Part shown: positions 19,185 to 52,514 of the stretch, in pieces
Layout: every line of letters begins with the position of its first letter
How positions within the stretch are numbered: the stretch's first letter is position 1
Virus record (IMG/VR): IMGVR_UViG_3300020389_000255
Coordinates: 1-64,000 of that record
From: a virus
DNA length: 64,000 bases
Strand: one strand, 5' to 3'
Notes under the pieces: model-generated
Databases searched by the model: none
The model's input: the letters and a program-made list of their open reading frames with translations, nothing else
What the model was told of the DNA's origin: nothing
Translations under genes and position numbers: made by a program

Positions 19185-22100
19185 CTATGTCGTTTCTTGT
19201 TTAACATCAGCGGCAATTGTATCCTCAACCACTAAGATTGATTTAGTATGACTATCTGGTTTACCTGCATATACGTATTTAGGGGTACTTCTAAAACCAA
19301 CAGGATGTATAGTTTTTTCTAACATATCTTTATAAATTTCTGGAGAAATAGAAGATTCTAATACATATGAAAAATCGTTATAGACATCTGGATCTCGTAA
19401 TATTTGTGTTCCATCAGTGAATCCTATATTATCAATTGCACGTGGTTTACTCGTAAAAATAGGACTAGTAAGTAATGTTCCAGTTGCAGTTGCAGTTGGA
19501 TAACCAGTTCCATCATTTCCACCAGGTGCTGATTTTGCTCCAAAAGCAATATCATTTCCAGTATATCCTAACCCAATATTTTTAACTTCAGTCTTAATAA
19601 TTGACCCTATTTTACTACTATATGAATATAACTTACACATTTTATCAATTTGATCATTTGCTGTATTATAAGCATATGCCAGTGGAAAATCACTATATCC
19701 ATCTCCCTCATCTAACAATTCTATTCCAGTAATCTTATTATTAGCATAACTTTCAATAATTGCTTGAGGAACTCTCGGCCCTACTGTTTTAATTTCAGAC
19801 CCATAACAAGTTGCTACTGGTTTAGCAAATTTCTCATCAGTTGCCCCAGTATAACCTAGATCACTTTCAATCCATCCTTGATCAGTATTTAAATTTCCAT
19901 TAGTTCCATTATAAATCATTCCTGCAAGCCAGCCCCCAAGATTATTATGTGCATATGATAAATGATATTGTTTACCAATATAATTTTTTCCAACAGATAT
20001 GTTTTCTGATTTAATCTCTCCTGTCAACCACAATCTCCATTTATTAGTAGAAATATTTTCAAATTTGACAATATGATATAAAGTTCCCGTACTACCTTCT
20101 CTTAAAATAGAAAGTCTATCATAATTGGAAAAAACATCTCCACTCGGCCAATGTGTACTGAGAGAAGCTCCATAATTTGTTCCTGAATTCCAGGTTGAAT
20201 TTATTTCAAATTCTGTTGTTATATCAGCATAAGAAGTTAAACTTCCAGTTTTAGTTGGAGCAAACCCATATATATCAATATAACGAATAGAAAATCCTAT
20301 TTTATGAGTAGCACCTATTGAACTTCCCTGATTACTAGCATTACTATCAAGTATAATTGACTCTACAGGACCAGTAGAAACAGCCGACACAGCTACACTT
20401 CCTCCAACACCAGATGCATCCAATTCTGCCGCTTCTTCTCCTACTCGATAACCAATTCCCCCATTGGTGATAGTTGCACCACTTATAACAGGTTCAACTT
20501 TTGCACGTAAAACATTTTCAGAATTACTTATTTTAATATCATTACCATCTTTATCCTGTGCAGTAATTGTTTCAATTGTACTAAATGCTTCTCCAAAAGG
20601 ACCTTTTTCTATATCATTACGCAATGACAATTCAGCAGATTCAACTAAAATAATATTATCAGTATCAGTTATTTTAATAACTGCATTAGTTGATGATCCA
20701 TTAAGTCCAATATCTCTCTTATCTTCAATAGTAGGTACCAAATAAACTTCTTCTTTGTTATCCCCACTGCTTCCAGTATCATCTTCTTTATATCCCACTC
20801 CTGGATTATTAATAGCAACACTCGTAACTACACCAGAACTATTAACTACATAATCTAAAGTCAATCCACTAGCAGTGGTTGAAACTTCACCTGTACTTTC
20901 CTTAAAGTAAGTAAGTCCTGCAATACCAGTTGCCTGGATTTTATTAACACGCAACTTTCTTGAATTACCACCAACTGTTTCTGCTGGTAACGTTGAACTA
21001 CTACGTATAGTCAATTCATCTCCAACTTTATAATCTTTTCCTATTGCGTTCAAAGTAAAAGAACTAATTCCACCAGATGAAGTTGTTGTATAATCTACAG
21101 TAGCATCTGTTCCAATACCACCATATAAATCTTTAGTAGCGGTAACTGAAGCTAATCCTGAAACTGCAATACGAGTTCCATTTTGTGGATGTGCAACTTG
21201 ATAATTTCCAATAGATTTTACTTTAAATCCTATACTATCATCTCCTTCATGGGCAATTCCATCAAGAGGATCTGTTACAGGAGTTACATTATCATCTACT
21301 GCAAATCCAGTTGCTAAATCAGCATTAGAAATATTAGAAACTACAACTGTCTTTTTTGTATGATCTTGTGAAACAACTTTACCAGTTACTGTCCCAAGAT
21401 TAATTATACTATCTTGTTCAACCATTTCTATCTTTTTTATTTTCCAATCAGGAATTCCACCAAAATCTTCACTAGTAAAACGTTGAAAAAGAGGATCTGT
21501 ACTCCAGTAACCCACGCCACTAACACTATTAATATCAGATAATATAAGTTTTTTAGGTCCCCATCCTCTAACAGTTCCAGTTGCAAATTTGTTACCACCT
21601 AAATGTTGGGTAACTATTTTATCTATTATATCATCATTTAATGGAGTATCATCAACTGTATCCTGCAACGTTAATATTAATTCTCCATCACCAGCAACAT
21701 CATCTAAAGTAACCTCAACTCCTCCCAAAGTATAATTAGAATTATGTAATATATTAACTTCCTCGTGAACTTGATAATCTGTTCCAGAAGTACTTGGTGT
21801 AAGAGTATCGATATCTATTTCATATACATTTTTATTTCTAGCAACATCATAATCTACGACTAATCCACTTCCATTTCCATAAGAAGTTATAACAGCTGTT
21901 CCATCTGTAGAATATCCACTTCCAACTCCTCTAGCAGCTAAAACTAAATCAAACAGATCTACTACTCCATCTTTATTAATATCACCCACTAAATTTGTTC
22001 CAGTTTGAGTAAAAGTAGTAGCAATACTAGTTAATGTTGCCAATCCAGTCACTCCACCAAAACTATTCACAGAAGTAACAGTAACTATTCCATTATTTCC

Positions 22101-25100
22101 AGAAACACCAGTAAGAACTGCACCAGATGAAAGACCACCTACCTTATAAGCATCTGCAACATTACTTAAAATATATATTTTATCACCGACCAAATAACCA
22201 ATTCCAGGATCGGAAGCTGTAGCAGAAACTATTCCACCATCTCCCCTTGTTGTATAATCTACAATCAATCCACTACCAGTACCATATGTCGTAGCAGAAC
22301 CAGTTATAGACCCAGCTGTTGTTATACTTTTAACAACAGAAGTTCCATTAAGACCAGTTACTTCTTTTAACTGGTAATAAATCTTATTTAAAGTCCAATC
22401 AGTCCAATCTAAAGTATCAAGTTCAGTTCCAGCTGCATCCTTTTTATAAAATTTAATATTACTACCAACACTAAAACTTCCATCTAAAACTTCAATATTA
22501 ACCTTAGTATATCCAGAAGCGACTGCCATATTGCTTAATACAGCTGTAAGTGTAGCGGCACCAGTATTACTCCCACCCGTTACCGTTGGAGCAGAATCAT
22601 ATCCACTTCCAAAATTAGTAATTGTTATAGTATCAATAACTCCTCCATCCACAGTATAGGTTCCCGTTGCAGGCGTAGTTGGAGACCCACCAGTAAATGT
22701 TAAACTTCCTGCATCATATCCTGTACCACCAGCTGCAATAGTAACTGAACGTACAATGGCAGAACTTGTTGAACTTCCTATAACAAAACGTATATAATCA
22801 TTTGTTTCTGTTCCTCTTATAATAACTGGATCTCCTTCCTCAAACCAAGAATCTCCAACAGAATATAAATTTCCAATTGTTATACTACTTGCAGTATTCA
22901 GATCAGTAGTACTTTTTACAATTCCACTAACATACTTATAAATCCCAGTAACAGTACTAGCAGTTCTAGTTCCTCCAACAGTAGTCGTAACTGTTGCACT
23001 AGAACCAGCACCTGTCTCAGTAGTTGTACTTTCACCAGTCGTAGCAGAATATCCAGTACCACCTGTAGCACCACCAATCAAATCAAAAGTAACTACAGGA
23101 CCAGTAGAACCTCCACCACTTATAGTAGCAACCGTTAAAATTGCATTAGTTCCCGCACCATTATCATCAACACTAACAGTATCATCAACTGCATATCCAC
23201 TCCCGCCACTTACAACAGTAGCAGTTAAAATTGTATCTGCTTTCAAATTATTTCCGTCAATTAATGGTGTTGTAGACGTTGTGCTAAAACTACCATTAAC
23301 GTCAATCACATACAATTTATTATTTGCTGTATCCCATTTACTAATAATTCCACTTGCCCTACTCGACGAATCTTCTTGAACAACTTCAGCACCTACTGTA
23401 AATTCAGTACTATTACCTTCAGTAACATCTAAAATTGTATACGGTTCAACTTCTACACTATCCCCAACATCAAAACCAACACCGGTCAAAGAATGAGCAT
23501 CATTTGATCCATCTGCTGTAATATCAATTTCAGTACCAGCAATTGCATTAGAACTAGAAGTAGCTAATTGTAAAATATCATCATCTACTTTTATTACATA
23601 ATAAGAAACACTTGAAGTCAAACCAGTAATTGCAGAAGCACCACTTCTATACACAACTAAATTCCCAGTTAAAAATCCATGTGCAGTTATTGTAATCTGA
23701 TCAGTAGACGGATCAACTGCGGTTGCACCATAAAATAATTTTGTTCCGTTAGCAGTAGAAATAGTTCCTTGTCCAACAATCGCACTAATACTAGCCACAG
23801 TAAGTGTTACCGTTGCATTAGTATAACCAGAAGGATCTTGCAATACAATAGTATCACCAACAGAAAATCCTACACCAGCAGTAACAGGCGTTGCATTGAC
23901 AGTTACAACAGATGAACTATCAGTTGTAATAGAAAAAGTTGCTCCAGTTCCATAAAGACTAGTAGAATATATAGAAACAGTAGTAGCACTTTGACTTGAA
24001 TACCAAGTACCAGATGTTGCACCTTGTGTGAAAGTGAGAACTCCAGTATAAATTGGAGTTGAATCATATTCTTCAACTGTATCAATACGAGTAAAAGGTG
24101 TAACAACACCAGGAGTATTTTCTAATAATTCAATCCACATAATTTTTGAAGAAGAATCCCACGATAAAACCTTTCCACGTTTTGTTTGAATTATTTGAGC
24201 TGATTGACCTGGATGTTCTACAATACCACCTATAGTAAACCCAGAAGTGTCAACAGTATCTAATACCAATCTTTGTGTTCTTTTATATAAATTAGCATTA
24301 GTATCATCATAACCAAGAGTTAGAGCTCTTTCATCTCCATAAAATGCAACTTTACCATCCGCAGTTTTACTAGTTACAACATCACTAACATTAGTAGTGC
24401 CTTGATAAGCATATATTTCATAACCACTTTCAGCATCATAAGTAATGGGAATATTCCAAAAATCCTTTTCGGGAGGTATTACTAATTCAGCAGGAACAAC
24501 TTTTTCACTAGGAGAAAATTCTGGAGGTTTTCCAGAATTCCAATATGCAGTAGCTGTATCAGTTGGATCTGAAGTAACAACATGATAGATTGATTTACTA
24601 CCTACAGTAGTAATAGTTTCTATTTTTCCCATTCCTGATTGAATATTCCAACCAGCAAATGAATGTTCTGTCGTTTCATCAAAATTCGCCATAGGTAAAA
24701 GTACATCACCTTTTGCCCATCCTGATTGGTTGTTTTCAAATAATTCAATTTTTAAAATTCGTTCATAACCACTTCCAACAAAAACAGATTTTAATGTAGA
24801 AACTACTCCATTAGAATACCGATTATCATATGATTTTAATAATGAAAGTCCATCTTCTGCTGGATCCAATGAACCAGGGATTTTATAACCAGTTCCCCCA
24901 CTACCTAAAAGTACAGTTATAACAGGAGCAGTATCTAAGATTTTAATATTAGATTCATGGTCACTATTTAAAACATATGCCCTAGCACCAGTTTGACGTC
25001 CAACTACATACGTACCAGCAAATTCAGAAAAATTAGCAAGTTTAGATGGTTCAATACTAGAATCAATTTCTTGAATACGCATCCTAGTTTCAATGTGATA

Positions 25101-25622
25101 TTTATTAGAAGATAATTTAAATATCTCTTTAGCAGGTTCTACAAATTTTGCAGTAACATTATACGCAAATCTAAATAGTATGTCATAACTTAATGCAGTT
25201 CCTTTTGATCTATTAAGTAAATTTGCAATCTTTAAAAGTCTATCTCTATCTCCAAGTAAATCCCCAGTATATCCATATAAAAATTCATTATATAAATTAT
25301 ACTTCAAATCATCCTTTATCAAATCAACATCTCTATATCCAGTAAGACGCATTAATTCTCCATGCAATCCTGGAACAGATTCATTCACAAATTCTCCAAT
25401 CATACTAGACTGAGAAATTCCAATACTATTATTTGATTTATCAGCAAGTGTTGCCAATACATTTTGTTCTAAAAATTCATAATATACTTCTAAAAATCTT
25501 GTAAAAAGAGTTCTATCAGTTTTTCCCGATAAAGGTTTTTCAAAATCTAGATGTATTGTCGCTGGTAATTGAGAATAAATGAATTGTGATATAGTACGTG
25601 AAATTTTATCTTGATAATTCAT
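19185..25622 (-). CDS. gp7: gp7-like baseplate wedge protein, enlarged by beta-repeats (2,145 aa)
   Basis: Position between gp6 and gp8 matches T4 gene 7, but the product is twice the 1,032 aa of T4 gp7. Residues 1-190 are a non-repetitive helical domain (FTRFLEVYYEFLEQN, then LLGDRDRLLKIANLLNRSKGT) typical of the marine T4-like protein at this position. From about 200 to 1,950 there are many short beta modules containing GxGY followed by VGD or a similar turn, separated by acidic segments. The C-terminal 80 residues (YVLESSISPEIYKDMLEKTIHPVG) are again non-repetitive. A dockerin-like calcium loop lies at residues 1214-1225. The start follows the gp6 stop by one base. gp7 identity is inferred from order and the ends; the repeats are what is seen. 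Confidence 0.75.
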   Translation of the reverse strand: MNYQDKISRTISQFIYSQLPATIHLDFEKPLSGKTDRTLFTRFLEVYYEFLEQNVLATLADKSNNSIGISQSSMIGEFVNESVPGLHGELMRLTGYRDVDLIKDDLKYNLYNEFLYGYTGDLLGDRDRLLKIANLLNRSKGTALSYDILFRFAYNVTAKFVEPAKEIFKLSSNKYHIETRMRIQEIDSSIEPSKLANFSEFAGTYVVGRQTGARAYVLNSDHESNIKILDTAPVITVLLGSGGTGYKIPGSLDPAEDGLSLLKSYDNRYSNGVVSTLKSVFVGSGYERILKIELFENNQSGWAKGDVLLPMANFDETTEHSFAGWNIQSGMGKIETITTVGSKSIYHVVTSDPTDTATAYWNSGKPPEFSPSEKVVPAELVIPPEKDFWNIPITYDAESGYEIYAYQGTTNVSDVVTSKTADGKVAFYGDERALTLGYDDTNANLYKRTQRLVLDTVDTSGFTIGGIVEHPGQSAQIIQTKRGKVLSWDSSSKIMWIELLENTPGVVTPFTRIDTVEEYDSTPIYTGVLTFTQGATSGTWYSSQSATTVSIYSTSLYGTGATFSITTDSSSVVTVNATPVTAGVGFSVGDTIVLQDPSGYTNATVTLTVASISAIVGQGTISTANGTKLFYGATAVDPSTDQITITAHGFLTGNLVVYRSGASAITGLTSSVSYYVIKVDDDILQLATSSSNAIAGTEIDITADGSNDAHSLTGVGFDVGDSVEVEPYTILDVTEGNSTEFTVGAEVVQEDSSSRASGIISKWDTANNKLYVIDVNGSFSTTSTTPLIDGNNLKADTILTATVVSGGSGYAVDDTVSVDDNGAGTNAILTVATISGGGSTGPVVTFDLIGGATGGTGYSATTGESTTTETGAGSSATVTTTVGGTRTASTVTGIYKYVSGIVKSTTDLNTASSITIGNLYSVGDSWFEEGDPVIIRGTETNDYIRFVIGSSTSSAIVRSVTIAAGGTGYDAGSLTFTGGSPTTPATGTYTVDGGVIDTITITNFGSGYDSAPTVTGGSNTGAATLTAVLSNMAVASGYTKVNIEVLDGSFSVGSNIKFYKKDAAGTELDTLDWTDWTLNKIYYQLKEVTGLNGTSVVKSITTAGSITGSATTYGTGSGLIVDYTTRGDGGIVSATASDPGIGYLVGDKIYILSNVADAYKVGGLSSGAVLTGVSGNNGIVTVTSVNSFGGVTGLATLTSIATTFTQTGTNLVGDINKDGVVDLFDLVLAARGVGSGYSTDGTAVITSYGNGSGLVVDYDVARNKNVYEIDIDTLTPSTSGTDYQVHEEVNILHNSNYTLGGVEVTLDDVAGDGELILTLQDTVDDTPLNDDIIDKIVTQHLGGNKFATGTVRGWGPKKLILSDINSVSGVGYWSTDPLFQRFTSEDFGGIPDWKIKKIEMVEQDSIINLGTVTGKVVSQDHTKKTVVVSNISNADLATGFAVDDNVTPVTDPLDGIAHEGDDSIGFKVKSIGNYQVAHPQNGTRIAVSGLASVTATKDLYGGIGTDATVDYTTTSSGGISSFTLNAIGKDYKVGDELTIRSSSTLPAETVGGNSRKLRVNKIQATGIAGLTYFKESTGEVSTTASGLTLDYVVNSSGVVTSVAINNPGVGYKEDDTGSSGDNKEEVYLVPTIEDKRDIGLNGSSTNAVIKITDTDNIILVESAELSLRNDIEKGPFGEAFSTIETITAQDKDGNDIKISNSENVLRAKVEPVISGATITNGGIGYRVGEEAAELDASGVGGSVAVSAVSTGPVESIILDSNASNQGSSIGATHKIGFSIRYIDIYGFAPTKTGSLTSYADITTEFEINSTWNSGTNYGASLSTHWPSGDVFSNYDRLSILREGSTGTLYHIVKFENISTNKWRLWLTGEIKSENISVGKNYIGKQYHLSYAHNNLGGWLAGMIYNGTNGNLNTDQGWIESDLGYTGATDEKFAKPVATCYGSEIKTVGPRVPQAIIESYANNKITGIELLDEGDGYSDFPLAYAYNTANDQIDKMCKLYSYSSKIGSIIKTEVKNIGLGYTGNDIAFGAKSAPGGNDGTGYPTATATGTLLTSPIFTSKPRAIDNIGFTDGTQILRDPDVYNDFSYVLESSISPEIYKDMLEKTIHPVGFRSTPKYVYAGKPDSHTKSILVVEDTIAADVKQETT

Positions 25623-31656: not shown

Positions 31657-32499
31657 TTATGTTACCTCATATTCTTCTGCAACATCTACTTTATCGGCAT
31701 CTTTTTCTTCGATAAACAAATGTCGTAAAGATTTTCGTTGACGTTCTTTTCTACGTTTTTTAGCGTCATAATAGTCAGTACCATCATATACAAATTGCAA
31801 TTCGTGATGTTCAAAAAATTCATACATACGTAATGGATGTGTTCCGAATCCCATCCATGTCATAACATCAATTCCAAATCCTAATTGAATGTTAGTAATT
31901 CTAGAACAAAGTCCTAATAGTCTTCCAGATGCATGAAAAACTCCACCACCAGAATTTCCAAATATAGACGGTGCATTGTACATGATATAAGCCTTTTGTT
32001 CAATCATTTCTCGTAAATAAGTTAATTCTCCTTTATTAGAAAATGGATCGTGCAATAAACTACAACCACTTGTCCAAACTTCATCAAACAATTGCAAATT
32101 ATCAATGTCTGACTTAGGATAAATCTTGGCAACATGATCTTGTTGTCTAGTATTATGCAACTTAACTGCGGCCAAATCATGTCCTTTGTCATATGCAATA
32201 ATTTCTGCCTGAGAACTATTTGCAGAAGATATTTTTGATCCGTCATAATCAAAAACTTCAATAGCAACTTCTTCAAGTATATCTTTTTTAATCTCCCTTT
32301 TCAATAAAGAATCCCATTCATTTTTTACTGTAATTGCCCCATCAATCACATGTTGACAAGTTAACACAATATTAATATATTTATTTTCATTTTTCGGATC
32401 AAGCTCACTATATACCAATACACCAGATCCACCAGCTTTTCCAGCCTTAACTCTGGTAACAGGATACAAAACTTGTTCGTGCAATTCTTGTTGATTCAC
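31657..32499 (-). CDS. Trypsin-like (S1 fold) serine protease
   Basis: 280 aa. The triad is visible: His50 in TCQHVID, Asp108 in GHDLAAVKL, Ser183 in GNSGGGVF. A GGSGVLV strand precedes, as in HtrA/trypsin-like proteases. There is no signal peptide, no PDZ domain, and the last 50 residues are basic then acidic (KKRRKERQRK followed by EEKDADK). It starts at GTG 32499 behind an AAGGGG site. It is embedded between gp27 and gp5, so it is made late. Processing of a baseplate or fibre protein, or of a host surface or defence protein, would fit; the substrate is unknown. It is distinct from the T4 gp21 prohead protease by sequence and location. Confidence 0.88.
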   Translation of the reverse strand: MNQQELHEQVLYPVTRVKAGKAGGSGVLVYSELDPKNENKYINIVLTCQHVIDGAITVKNEWDSLLKREIKKDILEEVAIEVFDYDGSKISSANSSQAEIIAYDKGHDLAAVKLHNTRQQDHVAKIYPKSDIDNLQLFDEVWTSGCSLLHDPFSNKGELTYLREMIEQKAYIMYNAPSIFGNSGGGVFHASGRLLGLCSRITNIQLGFGIDVMTWMGFGTHPLRMYEFFEHHELQFVYDGTDYYDAKKRRKERQRKSLRHLFIEEKDADKVDVAEEYEVT

Positions 32500-40335: not shown

Positions 40336-41217
40336 CTACTCACCTGCTAATTTTTTAAAGTATGACAAAGTTTCTTCTTCAGATCCTTCCTCATAAGTTG
40401 ACTCAACTGAAATTTCTGGTTCAGCCGCATCAACTGATTCTTCAACTGCCTCAAATTTAACACGATCCGAATCTGCCTCAAAACCTAAAACACGTTCCAT
40501 CTTTGTTTTAAGTTCATCAAACGTTTTAAATTGATCTGGCGCAACCAATTCTTGCAATGAATACTGCTTATTATACAATTCTTCCAATTTTGCATCATCA
40601 CCATCAAGAATTGCAGCGGTAGCATCAAATTCTGACCTATCATAATTAACAAACCCATCAACAGTACGAATTTTAAGTTTAAAATCAGCACCTTCCCAAT
40701 AATCAAATGGATTCATTGGAGTTTCATCTTGAAATTCTGGGTTCATTGTATCATTAATTTTATCAAATATCCTCTTTCCATAACGATAAATAAAATTCTT
40801 ACCTTCATTATCAGGATTTGCTGGATCTTTAATTACCATAATATTAGATACATAATTCAGACGCCGTTTCTGCTTACGTGCTTGTTCTTTGCCTGCCTCT
40901 GTACCATTATTCCAAAGACCAGTATTAAATTCACTAACAGGATCTTTCTGATTCAAAGTTGTGAGTGAATTCTCAATATACCAACCACCAGGACCTTGAA
41001 AACCATGTGAAAAAATACGAACCCATGGTAAATCTTCTCCTTCAGTCTGTGGTAGGAAACGAATCACAGCATAACCATTACCAGACTTATCACGTTCTGG
41101 TTTCCAATAACGATCATCGATATAACTAACCGTTTGTTGTTGGGTTTTTTCTAATTCTGCGGTGAGATTAGCAATTGTTGCATTACGATTTTGCTTTAAA
41201 CTTGCAAAAGATGACAT
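40336..41217 (-). CDS. gp32: Single-stranded DNA-binding protein gp32, zinc-less
   Basis: 293 aa (T4 gp32 is 301 aa). The N-terminal SSFASLKQNR is the basic LAST-type cooperativity segment, the core has RFLPQTEGEDLPWVRIFSHGF, and the C-terminus is the acidic tail (EEGSEEETLSYFKKLAGE) that binds partners. There is no cysteine in the protein, so the zinc finger of T4 gp32 is absent, as in other marine relatives. It coats single strands and recruits gp59 and the replisome. The gene has its own perfect sigma-70 promoter inside the end of gp59 and an AAGGAG site. Confidence 0.95.
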   Translation of the reverse strand: MSSFASLKQNRNATIANLTAELEKTQQQTVSYIDDRYWKPERDKSGNGYAVIRFLPQTEGEDLPWVRIFSHGFQGPGGWYIENSLTTLNQKDPVSEFNTGLWNNGTEAGKEQARKQKRRLNYVSNIMVIKDPANPDNEGKNFIYRYGKRIFDKINDTMNPEFQDETPMNPFDYWEGADFKLKIRTVDGFVNYDRSEFDATAAILDGDDAKLEELYNKQYSLQELVAPDQFKTFDELKTKMERVLGFEADSDRVKFEAVEESVDAAEPEISVESTYEEGSEEETLSYFKKLAGE

Positions 41218-41290: not shown

Positions 41291-41319
41291 ATTATAACAT
41301 ATTTTTCAGGCAATGTCAA
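41291..41319 (-). promoter_or_regulatory. Consensus sigma-70 promoter of gp32
   Basis: TTGACA (41319-41314), 17 bp, TATAAT (41296-41291), with TG one base before the -10. It overlaps the last codons of gp59. It predicts a leader of about 65 bases containing an AACGCATATAA motif before gp32. It is one of five closely similar promoters in the window. Confidence 0.9.
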
Positions 41320-41893
41320 GCCTATTTTTAATAATTTCCTTATATTTTTTAATATCGACACTAAGGAAACTCTTATACTTCTCACAGACTATTCGATTTG
41401 CTGGCCATTGATACTCGTCCAACTCCTCATCAAACTGTGGGAAAAAATTTAATATCATATCCATAATGATAAATGTTTCGGGTGAAATAATACCCTGATA
41501 AAACAATTTTAATATTGTTGGATCTGCATCTTTCAACCTAAACAATTCATCAAAATGACTAACATTATCTAACATAACATCCAATTCCTGTTGGAAATTG
41601 TATGTCATACTCTGCATACGGTTCTTCCAAGCAACGAAAATATCATCACCTGTATTTACCATATCTTCTAATCTTTTGTTTCCAGAAACAAAATTAGAAA
41701 CAAAAAACGGTAATAACTGTCCTTCTTTATATCGTTTATTAAACGTTTCAAAGTAACGAGGAAAACCTCGTCGACCATAAAACTTCTCGGACGATTGTAC
41801 ACGGACACCACCATTGTAACGAAAATAATCGTATCCAGGTTGTTCAAAATGTTGCTTAATGCCCATGTACAATTTATAAGTTTTATAACTCAT
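41306..41893 (-). CDS. gp59: Helicase loader gp59
   Basis: 195 aa (T4 gp59 is 217 aa). The start MSYKTYKLYMGIKQHF and the following GYDYFRYNGG are the family signature. Middle and C-terminal helices (ADPTILKLFYQGIISPETFII) also fit. gp59 loads the gp41 helicase on gp32-coated forks. The order 33-59-32 is the same as in T4, and its ATG overlaps the gp33 stop. Confidence 0.93.
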   Translation of the reverse strand: MSYKTYKLYMGIKQHFEQPGYDYFRYNGGVRVQSSEKFYGRRGFPRYFETFNKRYKEGQLLPFFVSNFVSGNKRLEDMVNTGDDIFVAWKNRMQSMTYNFQQELDVMLDNVSHFDELFRLKDADPTILKLFYQGIISPETFIIMDMILNFFPQFDEELDEYQWPANRIVCEKYKSFLSVDIKKYKEIIKNRLDIA

Positions 41894-42144
41894 AAAGGCA
41901 AAGATCCTGTTCTTGGTAAAAAGTTAAATTTAACTGCCTCTGCCTCGACTTTATCTTTCAATGATTTACTCAATAACTTAGGCACAATATCAGTATCAAT
42001 ATTATGTTTGACACAATAATCTAATATTGCATCCATGTAACCGAGTCCTTCATCTCTAACCAAATCACAAATAGCATCAGAAAATTTTCTTGGATTGTGT
42101 AAGTTTGTTATTTCCAAGAATTCTTCTTCAGTCAATTTCGCCAT
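41890..42144 (-). CDS. gp33: Late transcription coactivator gp33
   Basis: 84 aa (T4 gp33 is 112 aa). The N-terminal helical part (EEFLEITNLHNPRKFSDAI) and the C-terminal FNFLPRTGSLPL fit gp33 of marine T4-like phages. Position next to gp59 and gp32 is conserved. gp33 bridges host RNA polymerase and the sliding clamp for late promoters, consistent with TATAAATA boxes in this genome. Confidence 0.8.
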   Translation of the reverse strand: MAKLTEEEFLEITNLHNPRKFSDAICDLVRDEGLGYMDAILDYCVKHNIDTDIVPKLLSKSLKDKVEAEAVKFNFLPRTGSLPL

Positions 42145-42160
42145 AAAATATCATATCTCC

Positions 42161-43024
42161 TTAATGATTTTGTAAAAGTTGGAATATAGTTTGTGACAAG
42201 GATTGTGCTTGTGCCATCATTGCCAATGCTGTTTGTTGTTTAATTTGATTCACTGACATATCAGTGATTTCTCTCGCCTCATCCAATGCAGTTAAACTAT
42301 TTCGATTGTTTTCTGTTTGCAAGACCATGCCTTCCAAGTTAGTTATAGTAAAATCAAACCTACGGATAGTTGCACCAATTCGTGCTTGATGTTCAATCAA
42401 TTGGTTAAGTGCAGCGTCTAACGTTTCAACTGCATCAAGTGATTTTGATGTATCATCAACTGAACTATCAGAAACAGCAAATAACGTGGGAGTTCCAGCG
42501 ACCTCTTTAGTCTTTCCCAATACATCAGCAGATGCATCACCCAATGATATATTAATTCTTTGATCTGGATCGTCATTAATTCCAATTGCAACTATCTTAT
42601 TAGTAAAATCACCACCTAACAATTCAATACCATTGTATTTGGTTGTAGCAACCACAAACTCAGCTTCTTCCAATAGTTGATTATATTCAGCAGAAAGAAT
42701 CACTCGTTCTTCTTGTGAAGTAGAATCATTTGAAGATTCGACACCAATTTCTCTCAGACGTTCAACAATAGTCCTGACTTGTGCCATTCCAGTATCAGCA
42801 GTAATAAGCAAATCTTGAGAATTCTTGACATTCCGATTTGCTTGTTCTAATGCAACTATCTTATTGGTCATTCGGACGACACTTGCCGAAGCGACACTAT
42901 CATCAGAAAAATTCGGAATCCGTGAACCACTAGAAATCTTCTCTACATTCTTCTCAATATCAGCTGTTGCTTTTTTGTAATTGTTGTATGCGTTGAGCAT
43001 TGCACGTTGTAAACCTTGAATCAT
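42161..43024 (-). CDS. Phage-encoded flagellin homologue
   Basis: 287 aa covering both conserved halves of bacterial flagellin. N-terminal half: SSGSRI at 31-36 followed by Asp41-Asp42, matching the flagellin 'LSSGLRI...DDAAG' site, then ADTGMAQVRTIVERLREIGV and YNGIELLGG. C-terminal half: LDAALNQLIEHQARIGA, then ITNLEGMV and a final helix with AMMAQAQSLSQTIFQLLQ. Domains D2/D3 are absent or minimal. It has its own AGGAG site and lies between gp33 and a group of small genes beside the tmRNA, not in the virion operons. The homology is clear; whether it makes filaments, alters host motility or is a virion part is unknown. Confidence 0.92.
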   Translation of the reverse strand: MIQGLQRAMLNAYNNYKKATADIEKNVEKISSGSRIPNFSDDSVASASVVRMTNKIVALEQANRNVKNSQDLLITADTGMAQVRTIVERLREIGVESSNDSTSQEERVILSAEYNQLLEEAEFVVATTKYNGIELLGGDFTNKIVAIGINDDPDQRINISLGDASADVLGKTKEVAGTPTLFAVSDSSVDDTSKSLDAVETLDAALNQLIEHQARIGATIRRFDFTITNLEGMVLQTENNRNSLTALDEAREITDMSVNQIKQQTALAMMAQAQSLSQTIFQLLQNH

Positions 43025-43052
43025 TTGTTACTCCTATAAAAAAAGTGTATAC

Positions 43053-43250
43053 TTATATATCGTCACATTTCGGAAAAACTTTAGCCTTTTCTTCAAATAT
43101 TCCACAAGTATATGTATTTCTATCTGGTATGGTAAACAAGCTTCCATCTTTACAAGTTTTTGTACATTTCGCATTATGTTTCCATTCATTATTAATATAC
43201 TCATGCACATGTGGAACTATATGCTTACAATTTTTACAAACTTTCTCCAT
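43053..43250 (-). CDS. Small cysteine/histidine-rich protein
   Basis: 65 aa from ATG 43250, which overlaps the stop of the upstream gene (TGATG). It has six cysteines and four histidines, including CKNC near the N-terminus, CTKTC in the middle and two later cysteines, suggesting one zinc site. A GTG one codon upstream is less likely. Not recognised. Confidence 0.65.
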   Translation of the reverse strand: MEKVCKNCKHIVPHVHEYINNEWKHNAKCTKTCKDGSLFTIPDRNTYTCGIFEEKAKVFPKCDDI

Positions 43251-43393
43251 CACTTAATACTCCATATAGGCAATTCTGAAAACCATTTTTTTACTCGTCT
43301 CCAAAATGTTATTTTTTTCATCGGTTCTTCCTTTTCAACAAACTCCCATGTAATCTTTGCACCAGGGATTACCTTAATAGATTTCTTCTCCAT
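43250..43393 (-). CDS. Small basic protein
   Basis: 47 aa, with a Lys/Arg/Trp-rich C-terminus (FWRRVKKWFSELPIWSIK) that may be an amphipathic helix. It starts immediately after the TAG of the preceding gene and shares one base with the next ATG. Tight coupling supports it; no family is recognised. Confidence 0.6.
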   Translation of the reverse strand: MEKKSIKVIPGAKITWEFVEKEEPMKKITFWRRVKKWFSELPIWSIK

Positions 43394-43582: not shown

Positions 43583-43899
43583 ACAAGTCGTGGTGACTAC
43601 TTATGTCATATCGGTGAGTCACCTGAACCTTTCCTATATCTGCTTGGGCCATATAGACTCTTGGAAATATAGTAGGGGTTTCTGTTGACAGGTACCCCAT
43701 AGACCCCGGCATTACCTATTAGGCAGCCATTTGTAATTCATAATCGTTTCCAATTATTAGTTTGCAACTTCTGAGATGTTGCCACTCCAAATAACCTACT
43801 CTCCATCATCGTCATACCTGTCGAATCCGTTACGCCCCCATTATGGTGGAGGCGGTGGGAGTTGAACCCACGTCCAGTGTATCGACAACTTCGTATCAT
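43583..43899 (-). ncRNA. ssrA: Circularly permuted (two-piece) tmRNA
   Basis: On the minus strand the 3' acceptor piece comes first: a T-arm (GTGGG-TTCAACT-CCCAC) and CCGCCTCCACCA ending at 43844. After four bases (TAAT) the 5' piece begins at 43839 with GGGGGCG, then the hallmark GGATTCGACAGG. The two ends form a perfect 7-bp acceptor stem whose third pair is G-U, the alanine identity element. The tag frame (GGA at 43751 to TAA at 43719) encodes GNDYELQMAA, ending in Ala-Ala with stops TAA and then TAG. The outer limits (43899 and 43583, the latter at a GGTGACT/AGTCACC hairpin) are approximate. It rescues stalled ribosomes and tags products for proteolysis. Confidence 0.93.
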
Positions 43900-43902
43900 C
43901 GG

Positions 43903-44394
43903 TTAAAAGTCCTTAAGATGTTTTTCTAGACTTGATTGTGTTTCACTACCTTCAAAACCAACTCTAACTGAAGGTGAATCTTCAGATTTAAATTCAGGAT
44001 TTTCCTTTTCTAATTTTTCTAATTCCTTCATCTTCATATCATAATCATAATCAGAAATTTCTACATTATCTGGATCTGTATAATATAAATTTTCGTGATA
44101 TTCTAAATAATTTCTCAACGTAGCAATATCATCTTCTGGATCATTCGTAGGAATCCATGTTACCATTGTCGATTTTTCTCCGACATCTACAATACGAGTT
44201 CTCCAATCTATGACATTCTCATCAGGTAGGTTATTGGGTTCAGATTGTCTCAATTCGGTAATGAACGCATTCCAATATTCTCGACCCTTTTCTTCGACAA
44301 TCCATCTATTCCCAATCAAAGATTCATCTTCAACTTGATCTGGAAATCTATTATAAACTTTATACATCATTGATTTATAACTATCAACACTCAT
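43903..44394 (-). CDS. Protein with stand-alone LigA domain Ia (NMN-binding domain)
   Basis: 163 aa. Residues about 92-146 align with the N-terminus of NAD-dependent DNA ligase: LRNYLEYHENLYY, EISDYDYDMKMKELEKLE, then EDSPSVRVG. Residues equivalent to E. coli LigA Tyr22, Asp32, Tyr35 and Asp36 are Tyr104, Asp115, Tyr118 and Asp119. The adenylation domain with KxDG is absent. Residues 1-85 are unrecognised. It is the first gene after a sigma-70 promoter (44427-44455) and lies immediately before the tmRNA. It may bind NAD/NMN or pair with a separately encoded ligase core; neither is shown. Confidence 0.75.
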   Translation of the reverse strand: MSVDSYKSMMYKVYNRFPDQVEDESLIGNRWIVEEKGREYWNAFITELRQSEPNNLPDENVIDWRTRIVDVGEKSTMVTWIPTNDPEDDIATLRNYLEYHENLYYTDPDNVEISDYDYDMKMKELEKLEKENPEFKSEDSPSVRVGFEGSETQSSLEKHLKDF

Positions 44395-48650: not shown

Positions 48651-48953
48651 CTAATATCCAAGAAGTACTCCTTTACCTTTCCTTTCTTCTTTTTCCAATT
48701 TATTCTTCACTGTAACTTCATCAAGACTCTTGGCACCGTGTTGCATCTTGATCCACTCTCCATGATGTTTCCAGCAGAGATGCCCACTACCACCAAATCT
48801 CAGTCTAAATGCAGTATTAACTCTAGGTTTATATTCACCCCCTCCCACTTTGTTGTGTGTTTCCTTCTTACAACCAGGTACACAACAAATCGGTCGTTTA
48901 GGAGGTTTTACTTCTTCGTATTTTCCAGTTTCTAAATTAAATAATACTTTCAT
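48651..48953 (-). CDS. Small zinc-finger (HNH-like) protein
   Basis: 100 aa. ICCVPGCKKETHN and GHLCWKHHGEWI supply Cys/Cys...Cys/His ligands of a treble-clef type finger. The first part resembles the N-terminal CAHPGC segment of the HNH protein at 62.6-63.4 kb, but no catalytic HNH core is clear. It directly follows the VWA gene. Confidence 0.6.
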   Translation of the reverse strand: MKVLFNLETGKYEEVKPPKRPICCVPGCKKETHNKVGGGEYKPRVNTAFRLRFGGSGHLCWKHHGEWIKMQHGAKSLDEVTVKNKLEKEERKGKGVLLGY

Positions 48954-51019
48954 TAACTTATCGCCTCTATGAAATTATCCAAGATGACTTTATTAGAAAC
49001 CTTAGAACGTTGAGTTTTTTTGAATGCCGTCATCAACACACGTTTGGTCGCATCAGCAGCGACGCCGTCCAAACTGTCTGCTTCGACTTTCAAATCTTTA
49101 CCGCCACGAATGACGTACAATTCAGTATAACCATCGTGTTCCAATACTGTCACTGATTTTTCTTTACGTAATTTCTTATTGAATTCTGCTATATGTCCAT
49201 ATGGTTTGTCTCCATTAGGGTCGACTTGTTGCGCCAATTCCCCACCAACAACTCTGTCTACAATGAAGAAACCGAGTACACTCGCACCATAACGTGTTCC
49301 GAGATGTTTCAACAAAGCATTAGTGATGTTGTGAGTTTTCTTGATTCCAATACTTATTTTCGTGATGGGGTCGACAATATACGTCATTGCCTCTCCCCAC
49401 CAATTCACAGAAATCGTCTTATAACCATAATTACTCTCTGGGTCATACATGAGAGTATTTCCATTAGATGCACCGTCTGTCAAGTAAATAACGTTGACTT
49501 TTTCTAGACGATTCGCAGCCTTAAACTTTTCGTAGATATCGAAAGTTGCTAAAACTGCATCATTGAGTGGAGTAGAACCAAGAGAATCACATGTTCCCCA
49601 ATGTCCCTTTTCAATACAATCTGCTAGATAGTAGATGTTCCACAATGCTTGATCAAATTCTCTGTTGTTCATACGTGAACTGAGATAATTTCGTAAATTG
49701 AAAGGACTGAAAATAAGATCATCTACTTTATATGAAAGAGTATAATCAATTTCTTTGTCAATATTCGCATCCGTGAACGTGTAAATCTCAAAAGGTATAT
49801 TCACTTTTTTACAGAACATCGCCAGAGTTATCGTCTGCTTGATGGTGTCAAAAAGTGAACCGTTCATTGATCCAGACCAATCGATGAACATCAGCAAACC
49901 GTGATTCTTGCCTTGTGGGATGCTTGTCACACGACGAAACAGGTCGTCATTGAATTTGTAAGAATGAATCTTATTTGTGTCTATCACACCAGTTTTTGCG
50001 CTGTTTGCTTTTGCATATTCAGCGGCAGATTTTTTCATCTCAAAACCTTTTGCGAGATAATTAACAGTCTTGGTGATTGACTTCTTGAAATGTTTAAAAT
50101 TATTGAATTCTACAGCCAAAGTTTTTCCTGATAACCAAGTTGAAATCTGCTTATTACAAATCTTATAGTCAATGATAAATTTCTCTGATGATACACTGGG
50201 TATCTTTGCATAGACATATTCTGATGTTCTTTTCGATGCAGTATCTTTCATACTTTCATTGAAATTTTCTTGTGTTTCAGATTCTTCCAATTGTTCATCA
50301 TCTTTTTCTTCCTGCACAGGATCAGTACCACTAGAAGATTCTTCCTTTTCACCTTCTTCAGTGTCATTAGAAAAATCATCAACAAAATCTTCATTGTCGT
50401 CCGATTCATCACCTTTACTAAGTTCAGACTCAGAAGGATCTAAATTTTCCTCTAATTCTTCCATTTCGTGTTCGTAGATTTTCTTGACGATTTCCATCAC
50501 AGTATCGAAATTTTCTGCTAAATCTATTTCGTCTATGATTTTCTTTTCAGTCGAGTCTAGAGGAATATCAATGTGTGAACCAATCTTGAAATGCAAATTG
50601 ATTTTATCTATTAGTGCGTAACTAGCGAGTTCTCTTCCAGAAGTACCGAAAAAGTTTTTCTCTACTAATTCTTCGTAACCCTTGTAGAAATTCTTACGCA
50701 AACCAGGAAATTTACGTTTTATTTTTTTCTCTATTCGTGCATCCTCGACTACGTTTATGAACGATTTCACTGCCATTACGTTGTTGGGATCGATGTCCTT
50801 TGCGAGATCTACGAAATTTGTGTTGGGGGTGAACAGTGCGTGACCGACTTCGTGTCCTACGAGAAGATCATAGACATCTTTGGATGCATCTTTCCAGATG
50901 GGGAGACCCAAGATACGATTCTTAACGTCAAAGTATGCAGTTGGGATGTTTTTGTGTTCTACTGAGATGTCCTCAGTTGCTAAGAGTTTTGCTAAGTTGT
51001 TTCGAGATTCTTGATTCAT
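48953..51019 (-). CDS. VWA-domain protein with HEXXH metallopeptidase motif (CobT-like)
   Basis: 688 aa in three parts. Residues 50-100 hold HEVGH (56-60) and a downstream EDARIE segment, as in gluzincin metallopeptidases. Residues 185-255 are an acidic linker. Residues 370-660 are a von Willebrand A domain with the MIDAS DWSGS (380-384), Thr483 and Asp515. CobT-type proteins partner with a CobS/MoxR ATPase, which is the next gene upstream. The pair probably forms a metal-dependent chaperone or remodelling machine; the target is unknown. Transcription is likely from the block at 51.05 kb. Confidence 0.88.
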   Translation of the reverse strand: MNQESRNNLAKLLATEDISVEHKNIPTAYFDVKNRILGLPIWKDASKDVYDLLVGHEVGHALFTPNTNFVDLAKDIDPNNVMAVKSFINVVEDARIEKKIKRKFPGLRKNFYKGYEELVEKNFFGTSGRELASYALIDKINLHFKIGSHIDIPLDSTEKKIIDEIDLAENFDTVMEIVKKIYEHEMEELEENLDPSESELSKGDESDDNEDFVDDFSNDTEEGEKEESSSGTDPVQEEKDDEQLEESETQENFNESMKDTASKRTSEYVYAKIPSVSSEKFIIDYKICNKQISTWLSGKTLAVEFNNFKHFKKSITKTVNYLAKGFEMKKSAAEYAKANSAKTGVIDTNKIHSYKFNDDLFRRVTSIPQGKNHGLLMFIDWSGSMNGSLFDTIKQTITLAMFCKKVNIPFEIYTFTDANIDKEIDYTLSYKVDDLIFSPFNLRNYLSSRMNNREFDQALWNIYYLADCIEKGHWGTCDSLGSTPLNDAVLATFDIYEKFKAANRLEKVNVIYLTDGASNGNTLMYDPESNYGYKTISVNWWGEAMTYIVDPITKISIGIKKTHNITNALLKHLGTRYGASVLGFFIVDRVVGGELAQQVDPNGDKPYGHIAEFNKKLRKEKSVTVLEHDGYTELYVIRGGKDLKVEADSLDGVAADATKRVLMTAFKKTQRSKVSNKVILDNFIEAIS

Positions 51020-51320: not shown

Positions 51321-52514
51321 CTAAAATGGGGTAACATCGACCTCATTTGACTTTTCCTCGATGGAAATGGTCGAATGGTGAGTTTTTGAGGATTCAGCCG
51401 GATCAACCTCTGCATCGACTTTTGAGTATAAATCCCTAAAACTTTCTTTTGTTTCATCATCGAATCTTTGTATGCAAAGATCAATTGCCTTCGCACGATC
51501 CTCAAAAATAGAATATGCCTTAGCAATATGCACTAATCGGCGAGTACTGATAATTTCATCAACTCCACCATCATAATAGGTTTTTCTGATAATATCTGCC
51601 CAACTCACCAAATTTTGCACATAATCATCATCTTTTATATTAAAAGTATCAAAATTCTTGCTTAAGATCTTTTTTTCAGTTGAAACGGCAGGATATTCCT
51701 GTTCGAGGGTAATTGCAAATCTTTCGAGGAATGCCTCATTTAAGATATTCGTGCCAATGAATGCCCCACTCTCACTGCCTTTACCCTTAGTATTTGCGGT
51801 AGCAATGATGGTAAAGCCATCTGCCGGACGAATCCACTGATTGATTTTTTTGAGGTAAACACCTTTTCCTTCAAGAACGGGTTGCAGACACAAGATCTTG
51901 TTAGACGCCAAATCTACCTCATCTAGCAGTAGTACAGCACCACGTTCCATAGCATCAATCACAGGACCTTTATGAAAAACAGTTTCACCATCGACTAGAC
52001 GAAATCCTCCTAAGAGGTCATCTTCGTCTGTCTCTATAGTGATATTCACACGGATCATATCTCTTTTGAGTTTAGAGCAAATTTGCTCTACCATAAAAGT
52101 TTTACCATTTCCGGAAAGTCCTGTAATGAAGGTAGGATAGAAATAACGAGATTTTACGATAGATTCTAAATCCTTATGATTTCCAAAAGGAACATAGGTT
52201 TTATCAGTATCTGGTATAAAACTGATAATACTATCAACTTCCTCAGAAGTATCAATTACCTCACCTTTGATGGCATTCCCAGTAATTGCGGGTGTGGTAA
52301 TAGGAACAGGAATATCGACGGAAACATCAATTTGAGTAGTATCTAAGGCATATTCTGCTTTTGCAACAGTATTTGCTTTCAACCATTTAGGAGGGAATTT
52401 TGAGATATCAGGGTATTTTTCGGAAAGTTCTAATACCTGCGACCGAGTGATAGTCTCAATATCTCCATATTCTGCTTTTACGGCACTCAAAAATGTTTGC
52501 ATCTTCTTAGTCAT
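51321..52514 (-). CDS. cobS: CobS/MoxR-type AAA+ ATPase
   Basis: 397 aa. Walker A GLSGNGKT (132-139), Walker B LLLDEVD (195-201), a sensor-1 region IIATANTKG, and the helix-2 insert region of the CobS/MoxR clade. CobS-like genes are widespread in T4-like marine phages, where the cobaltochelatase name comes from homology only. It pairs with the CobT-like VWA protein downstream. It is served by a sigma-70 promoter at 52570-52598 and probably a second block at 52.67 kb. Confidence 0.92.
   Translation of the reverse strand: MTKKMQTFLSAVKAEYGDIETITRSQVLELSEKYPDISKFPPKWLKANTVAKAEYALDTTQIDVSVDIPVPITTPAITGNAIKGEVIDTSEEVDSIISFIPDTDKTYVPFGNHKDLESIVKSRYFYPTFITGLSGNGKTFMVEQICSKLKRDMIRVNITIETDEDDLLGGFRLVDGETVFHKGPVIDAMERGAVLLLDEVDLASNKILCLQPVLEGKGVYLKKINQWIRPADGFTIIATANTKGKGSESGAFIGTNILNEAFLERFAITLEQEYPAVSTEKKILSKNFDTFNIKDDDYVQNLVSWADIIRKTYYDGGVDEIISTRRLVHIAKAYSIFEDRAKAIDLCIQRFDDETKESFRDLYSKVDAEVDPAESSKTHHSTISIEEKSNEVDVTPF

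Follow-up and report, generated by a model that had tools for sequence, protein, structure and literature searches.

What is a flagellin gene doing among the replication genes of a T4-like phage? The question arises from a stretch of 64,000 nucleotides of viral DNA (positions 1 to 64,000 of IMG/VR record IMGVR_UViG_3300020389_000255; hereafter the window), in which an initial annotation, made from the letters alone, described a full-length flagellin homologue. The open reading frame is indeed full length, encodes 287 amino acids, and reads from position 43024 to 42161, the plus strand being full of stops there. Both Pfam flagellin domains are found above curated cut-offs, in order, in this one protein: Flagellin_N (PF00669) over residues 8-140 (E = 7.5e-24, 84.8 bits against a cut-off of 26.6) and Flagellin_C (PF00700) over residues 200-284 (E = 9.7e-14, 51.9 bits against 23). 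Searching PDB sequences gives 73 matches at E<=0.01, the top one a flagellin (1.5e-29) that spans residues 23-285. The initial annotation had recognized both D0/D1 halves, an SSGxRI...DD site, a MAQAQ end, and the absence of D2 and D3. All of these hold: SSGSRI..SDD occurs, as does MAQAQ at the C terminus, and the protein is D0/D1 only. It had proposed the Pfam search as a check, with an unrelated phage coiled-coil family as the competing identity; flagellin matches at both ends, and no such family matches better. The identity was thus read correctly, while the minus-strand orientation, the promoter, the clade-wide exchange of the gene as a cassette, and the departures from near-fixed residues, all described below, went unnoticed. 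The gene is the sole flagellin of the 69,658-base virus record.

The hook-filament junction protein FlgL (junction protein 3) shares Flagellin_N-type helices, and was considered as an alternative identity and rejected. The FlgL model TIGR02550 gives 82.7 bits, below its cut-off of 127.2, and in a tree of 94 rows FlgL falls outside a branch of support 100 that holds the flagellins together with the phage proteins. NCBIfam flagellin models score as high as 130 bits on the window protein and none reaches its own cut-off, these cut-offs having been set for whole, narrower families. In seven genomes, scores are about 73-118 bits for paralogues of flagellin length and about 20-40 bits for those of FlgL type, FlgL identity having been checked for three of the latter. 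Judged by sequence, the window protein belongs in the flagellin (FliC) clade, apart from FlgL.

The surroundings are those of a T4-like replication region (Table 1), and the placement given earlier, with gp33 on one side and a tmRNA beyond small reading frames on the other, is borne out. Homologues of gp33, gp59, and gp32 lie beside the gene. Only 16 nt separate the flagellin stop from the gp33 start, with no terminator found between the two on their strand. The upstream side has three small ORFs along with a permuted tmRNA. A short protein encoded at 43903-44394 (minus strand), kept in relatives, resembles the N-terminal part only of NAD-dependent DNA ligase. Over roughly two thirds of its length, the gp6-like baseplate protein shows about 38-40% identity to its counterparts in Pelagibacter phage HTVC008M and in cyanophages, which places the phage in a T4-like lineage that has no close relative among isolates; these nearest T4-like phages suggest a putative marine origin.

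Table 1. Features at the flagellin locus of the window, and the gene that precedes group B flagellins on other viral contigs.
Feature	Position	Strand	Evidence
Phage flagellin (group A), 287 aa, D0/D1 only, without D2/D3	42161..43024	-	Pfam, PDB, AlphaFold model
gp33-like late transcription co-activator, next gene downstream	41890..42144	-	phrog_254, 1.5e-16
gp59-like helicase loader	41306..41893	-	phrog_269, 1e-44
gp32-like single-strand binding protein	40336..41217	-	phrog_224, 7.2e-113
Shine-Dalgarno AGGAG ahead of flagellin ATG	43031..43035	-	sequence; kept in relatives
TATAAGTA, one mismatch to T4-type late promoter TATAAATA	43050..43057	-	conserved
Predicted sigma-28 (FliA) type promoter TAAAGTTT-TTCCGAAATGT-GACGATAT	43057..43083	-	consensus match, conservation
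66-aa cysteine-rich ORF upstream of flagellin	43053..43253	-	ORF call
Permuted tmRNA, alphaproteobacterial type	43671..43950	-	ARAGORN; Rfam RF04321, RF01849
Gene of about 70 aa before group B flagellins	L271:2349-2564, L272:492-707, L274:2988-3197, other group B loci

Eight viral contigs carry relatives 76-92% identical to the window flagellin, and a scan of relatives guided by gp32 and gp59 revealed further flagellins in the matching position, on the upstream side of gp33. Full-length members split into group A, which includes the window protein, and group B, with 34-36% identity between the groups. Both Pfam flagellin domains occur in each group, and the two together form one clade (SH-aLRT 97) among flagellins, outside FlgL, in a tree where the donor is poorly placed, the sequences being short and divergent. 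An IMG/VR search with an alignment of both groups found phage flagellins at 37 viral loci, nearly all beside or near gene 33; in L352, L363, and L365 the distance between the two is greater by a few genes, and in L003 a 247-aa gene without a PHROG match (955-1698) separates them. Contamination or chimeric assembly is ruled out, because 37 loci carry the flagellin, most with the same gene order. Group B flagellins have lost the SSGxRI motif, and each one whose contig extends far enough is preceded by a conserved gene of 69-71 aa that matches no known family. Weak matches to the S-adenosylmethionine lyase family, below the curated cut-off, were seen near phage flagellins at L002:655-1347 and L271:1431-2132.

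Recent capture from a host was also considered and rejected. Eighty GTDB loci and 754 alpha- and gammaproteobacterial genomes yielded no close cellular relative, with identities of about 25-38%; as both searches are samples, a closer donor could exist. At E<=1e-25, flagellin matches came from 17 of 369 gammaproteobacterial versus 3 of 385 alphaproteobacterial genomes, although the tmRNA of the window is of the alphaproteobacterial type. Phage isolate records held no close relative of the window flagellin, and the flagellin matches they do contain lie in unannotated, mostly short records without visible T4-like context, and were taken as likely host DNA.

How far the phage proteins depart from cellular flagellins was measured on a reference set of 70 of the latter, using the 62 alignment columns in which at least 85% of them agree. 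Group A proteins keep 48-53% of these near-fixed residues and group B proteins 37-44%, against a cellular minimum of 65% and median of 94%. Seventeen residues that are rare in cells are fixed in all fifteen phage proteins. Among the changes shared by all fifteen are Gln in place of N274, the Asn of QAN that is invariant (100%) in the cellular set, and Thr in place of A265; the D0 positions N6, A265, N274, and P277 are lost in every phage member, and the N-terminal INTN is gone. Group A nevertheless keeps G33, R35, I36, D41, D42, R64, N65, R89, E113, G217, D248, Q272, and A273. Between two group A subgroups, identity is 51% in the D1 tip (residues 137-191) versus 89 and 93% in the D0 parts. Such a contrast is what a protein with a fixed core and a variable exposed part would show. 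With so many near-fixed residues lost, the phage flagellins are specialized proteins, and the subunit may not co-assemble or behave as an ordinary flagellin.

Structure prediction, another check that had been proposed, gave a poor AlphaFold model from phage sequences alone (pLDDT 48) and a pLDDT of 79.3 from 62 aligned sequences. The latter model matches flagellin filaments over nearly its entire length (Foldseek TM about 0.78; VIA-align Z 19-23). That alignment included cellular flagellins, so the fold matches back a flagellin fold and are not independent of the homology. A viral structure library gave no clear match to the model.

The initial annotation had regarded a promoter as missing. 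Upstream of the gene, however, lie both a predicted sigma-28 type promoter and an octamer resembling a T4 late promoter (Table 1). The flagellar sigma factor FliA recognizes the consensus TAAAGTTT-n11-GCCGATAA (PMC2859248; PMC7286023). The window site agrees with it at 14 of 16 positions, and group A promoters agree with the GCCGATAT form at 15-16 of 16. Scored across both strands of the window, about 128,000 positions, this is the top site, where a first-order Markov model expects about 0.03 such sites; a looser search allowing three mismatches also gives chance matches. Across group A the element takes the form TAAAGTTT-N11-(G/A)(C/A)CGATAT, ends 32-33 nt ahead of the ATG, and is seen in every homologous upstream region long enough to include it. 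In six such regions (the window, L001, L002, L004, L005, and L007, of which L004 and L007 are close kin), variable columns number 0 of 8 in the -35 box, 6 of 11 in the spacer, and 2 of 8 in the -10 box, versus 33 of 40 in the 40 nt upstream. The same element precedes some of the homologous cellular flagellin genes, among them genes of Acidovorax, Pseudomonas, and Kosakonia; in an Acidovorax locus (L209) it reads TAAAGTTTTTCCTGTAACACCCGATA. On this evidence the window element is predicted to be a sigma-28 type promoter, to be transcribed by FliA. No sigma-70 region 4 domain was detected in the 69.7-kb record, so the sigma factor would be the host's, unless it is encoded in a missing part of the phage. 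No sigma-28 site was found in the upstream regions of group B.

Several features of this region bear on how specific the signal is. The 66-aa upstream ORF overlaps the promoter at its 3' end in the window, and promoter conservation could have been a by-product of its coding sequence. That idea was rejected, because in L001 and L005 the ORF extends no further than the TAA of TAAAGTTT, without overlapping the promoter, and in L004 it is missing there. The octamer TATAAGTA overlaps the end of the -10 box and is conserved; an equally good match occurs in 17% of random 100-mers, so that, while it may be a late promoter, the match alone is not significant. An exact TATAAGTATACACTTTTT also precedes unrelated genes in other viral contigs, and the downstream half of the promoter is by itself therefore not specific to flagellin. 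Scanning all viral contigs for TAAAGTTT-N11-GCCGATA returned, among the matches listed, no flagellin outside the phage family. One viral contig (L084) has at least nine such motifs in 11 kb, as though a sigma-28-like factor served many of its genes. In still other viral contigs (L014:3520-3570, L017, and L021), TATAAGTATACACTTTTTT sits in a hairpin, AAAAAAGTGTATA..TATACACTTTTTT, that precedes a gene whose function is unknown.

Comparisons among group A loci show flagellins and flanking genes with discordant histories. Window and L001 flagellins are 92% identical, with gp33, gp59, and gp32 at 54, 41, and 68%; against L002 the flagellin is 85% identical, with gp33, gp59, and gp32 at 95, 98, and 98%. 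The homology between L004 and L005 covers -68 to +858, with 90.7% identity, and does not continue just beyond. Unlike flanks around a shared -68 to +858 segment indicate that promoter and ORF have been swapped as one unit between phage lineages. The dN/dS of phage flagellins, 0.07-0.30, shows purifying selection, that is, a protein retained for its function.

What that function might be was left by the initial annotation among several proposals. Conservation of the sigma-28 promoter with the gene favors those that act on the host flagellum (changed motility, a changed filament, or protection from flagellum-seeking phages) over a part in the virion. We lean slightly towards a reading in which the flagellin, under its sigma-28 promoter, has a motile host's flagellum as its target, being transcribed, exported, and then altering or blocking the filament; the host, we infer, would be flagellated, as the locus suggests. 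Host RNA polymerase carrying the flagellar sigma factor could transcribe the gene off incoming phage DNA, and would do so only in cells that are building filaments. The host's flagellar secretion system would then export the bare D0/D1 flagellin, and the product would join or terminate the filament and so change its surface, shape, or growth. The likely gains are an infected cell shielded from flagellum-binding phages, or swimming altered before lysis; promoter and gene travel as a small cassette among phages of one T4-like clade. Three points tell against this reading: group A retains only about half of the near-fixed cellular residues, group B has no sigma-28 promoter, and, as no terminator parts the gene from gp33, the promoter could serve the downstream genes as well. 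A sharper form of the last step holds that the altered flagellin is a poison subunit, which enters export or the growing tip but cannot lengthen the filament, and so halts filament growth and motility, saving energy and repelling flagellum-binding competitors. The loss of many near-invariant residues in all phage members, the four D0 positions included, and a control that would time the product exactly to filament growth speak for it; the thirteen residues from G33 to A273 retained in group A speak against, and inhibition is a prediction from sequence. We consider this version possible, though rather unlikely; sequence cannot choose between remodeling and poisoning.

Three other readings set the filament aside. 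The protein could belong to the virion, or work inside the cell as a phage protein, having borrowed the coiled-coil fold of flagellin with no flagellar role, as might be expected of a gene that in nearly all members sits by gp33 in a replication and late-control block, with the conserved late-promoter-like TATAAGTA ahead of it, and whose group B versions lack both SSGxRI and the sigma-28 site and have the 70-aa partner gene. Against it stand the joint transfer of sigma-28 promoter and gene in group A, a position outside the structural block, and the lack of a clear match in the viral structure library; we judge this reading improbable. The C-terminal D0 helix of flagellin is the binding place of FliS and FliW. 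It is also the most conserved part of the phage protein (93% between subgroups), and no FliS gene was found in the 69.7-kb record, as would suit an intracellular decoy that titrates FliS, FliW, FlgM, or CsrA circuits and resets motility and metabolism without export; the variable D1 tip instead suggests surface exposure, and we regard a decoy as quite improbable. Finally, with no terminator before gp33, the sigma-28 promoter could also serve gp33, gp59, and gp32. That the promoter exists for this operon, coupling it to the motile state of the host with flagellin a passenger, fits the 16-nt spacing, yet the promoter has moved along with the flagellin ORF between loci whose gp33, gp59, and gp32 differ, and L003 has its extra gene in between; this we find hardly credible.

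The favored action on the host flagellum has a precedent in prophages, from which phage-borne flagellin was first described: the prophage flagellin FliCP can take the place of the host filament, with a change in motility (PMC13418256). The FliCP-TldR system of Enterobacter and relatives resembles the present case in that a phage genome carries flagellin. It differs in belonging to temperate, lambda-like prophages, with D2-D4 domains and control by TldR and a guide RNA (PMC13418256), whereas here the phage is T4-like, the protein D0/D1 only, and the promoter of sigma-28 type. Neither a TnpB/TldR-type domain (PF07282, which does match in control genomes) nor a tyrosine integrase (PF00589) was found in the 69.7-kb record, which may be incomplete. 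The cellular flagellins FliC, FlaA, and FljK share with the phage protein both domains, full-length alignment, the predicted fold, and, for group A, the sigma-28 type promoter, but differ by full-length identities of only about 25-35% among the relatives found and by changes at about half of the near-fixed residues. Pelagimyophages and Melnitz are T4-like marine phages that also have a bacterial surface-appendage gene and a permuted tmRNA near a transcription co-activator gene, but they carry curli pore genes instead of flagellin, and the text of that paper does not mention flagella (PMC9004378). In the open-access literature, outside which most subscription journals lie, no paper was found on a flagellin of lytic or T4-like phages. 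Nor did that literature yield a flagellin family in T4-like phages that brings its own sigma-28 promoter, prophage flagellin being already known. We hold in even balance the broader proposition that a lytic T4-like clade has kept and diversified a flagellin since a single acquisition, and that one branch reads the motile state of its host through a captured sigma-28 promoter and remodels or shuts down the flagellum, all without lysogeny. If so, control of the host flagellum would be a direct part of lytic infection, whether phages sense the motility of their hosts and change it could be tested simply, and the locus would point to flagellated hosts for this uncultured clade.

Other genes of the window, all on the minus strand, deserve mention. 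A Trypsin_2-type protease gene (31657-32499; Pfam 1.7e-12) lies inside the baseplate block, and a homologue occurs near the flagellin in several group B phages. The structural block also encodes a 2145-aa protein (19185-25622) in which the stretch DINKDGVVDLFDLVLAARG resembles a dockerin type I repeat. At 48953-51019 and 51321-52514, a MoxR/CbbQ-type AAA ATPase adjoins a 688-aa protein that has no Pfam match and looks like a VWA-domain partner.
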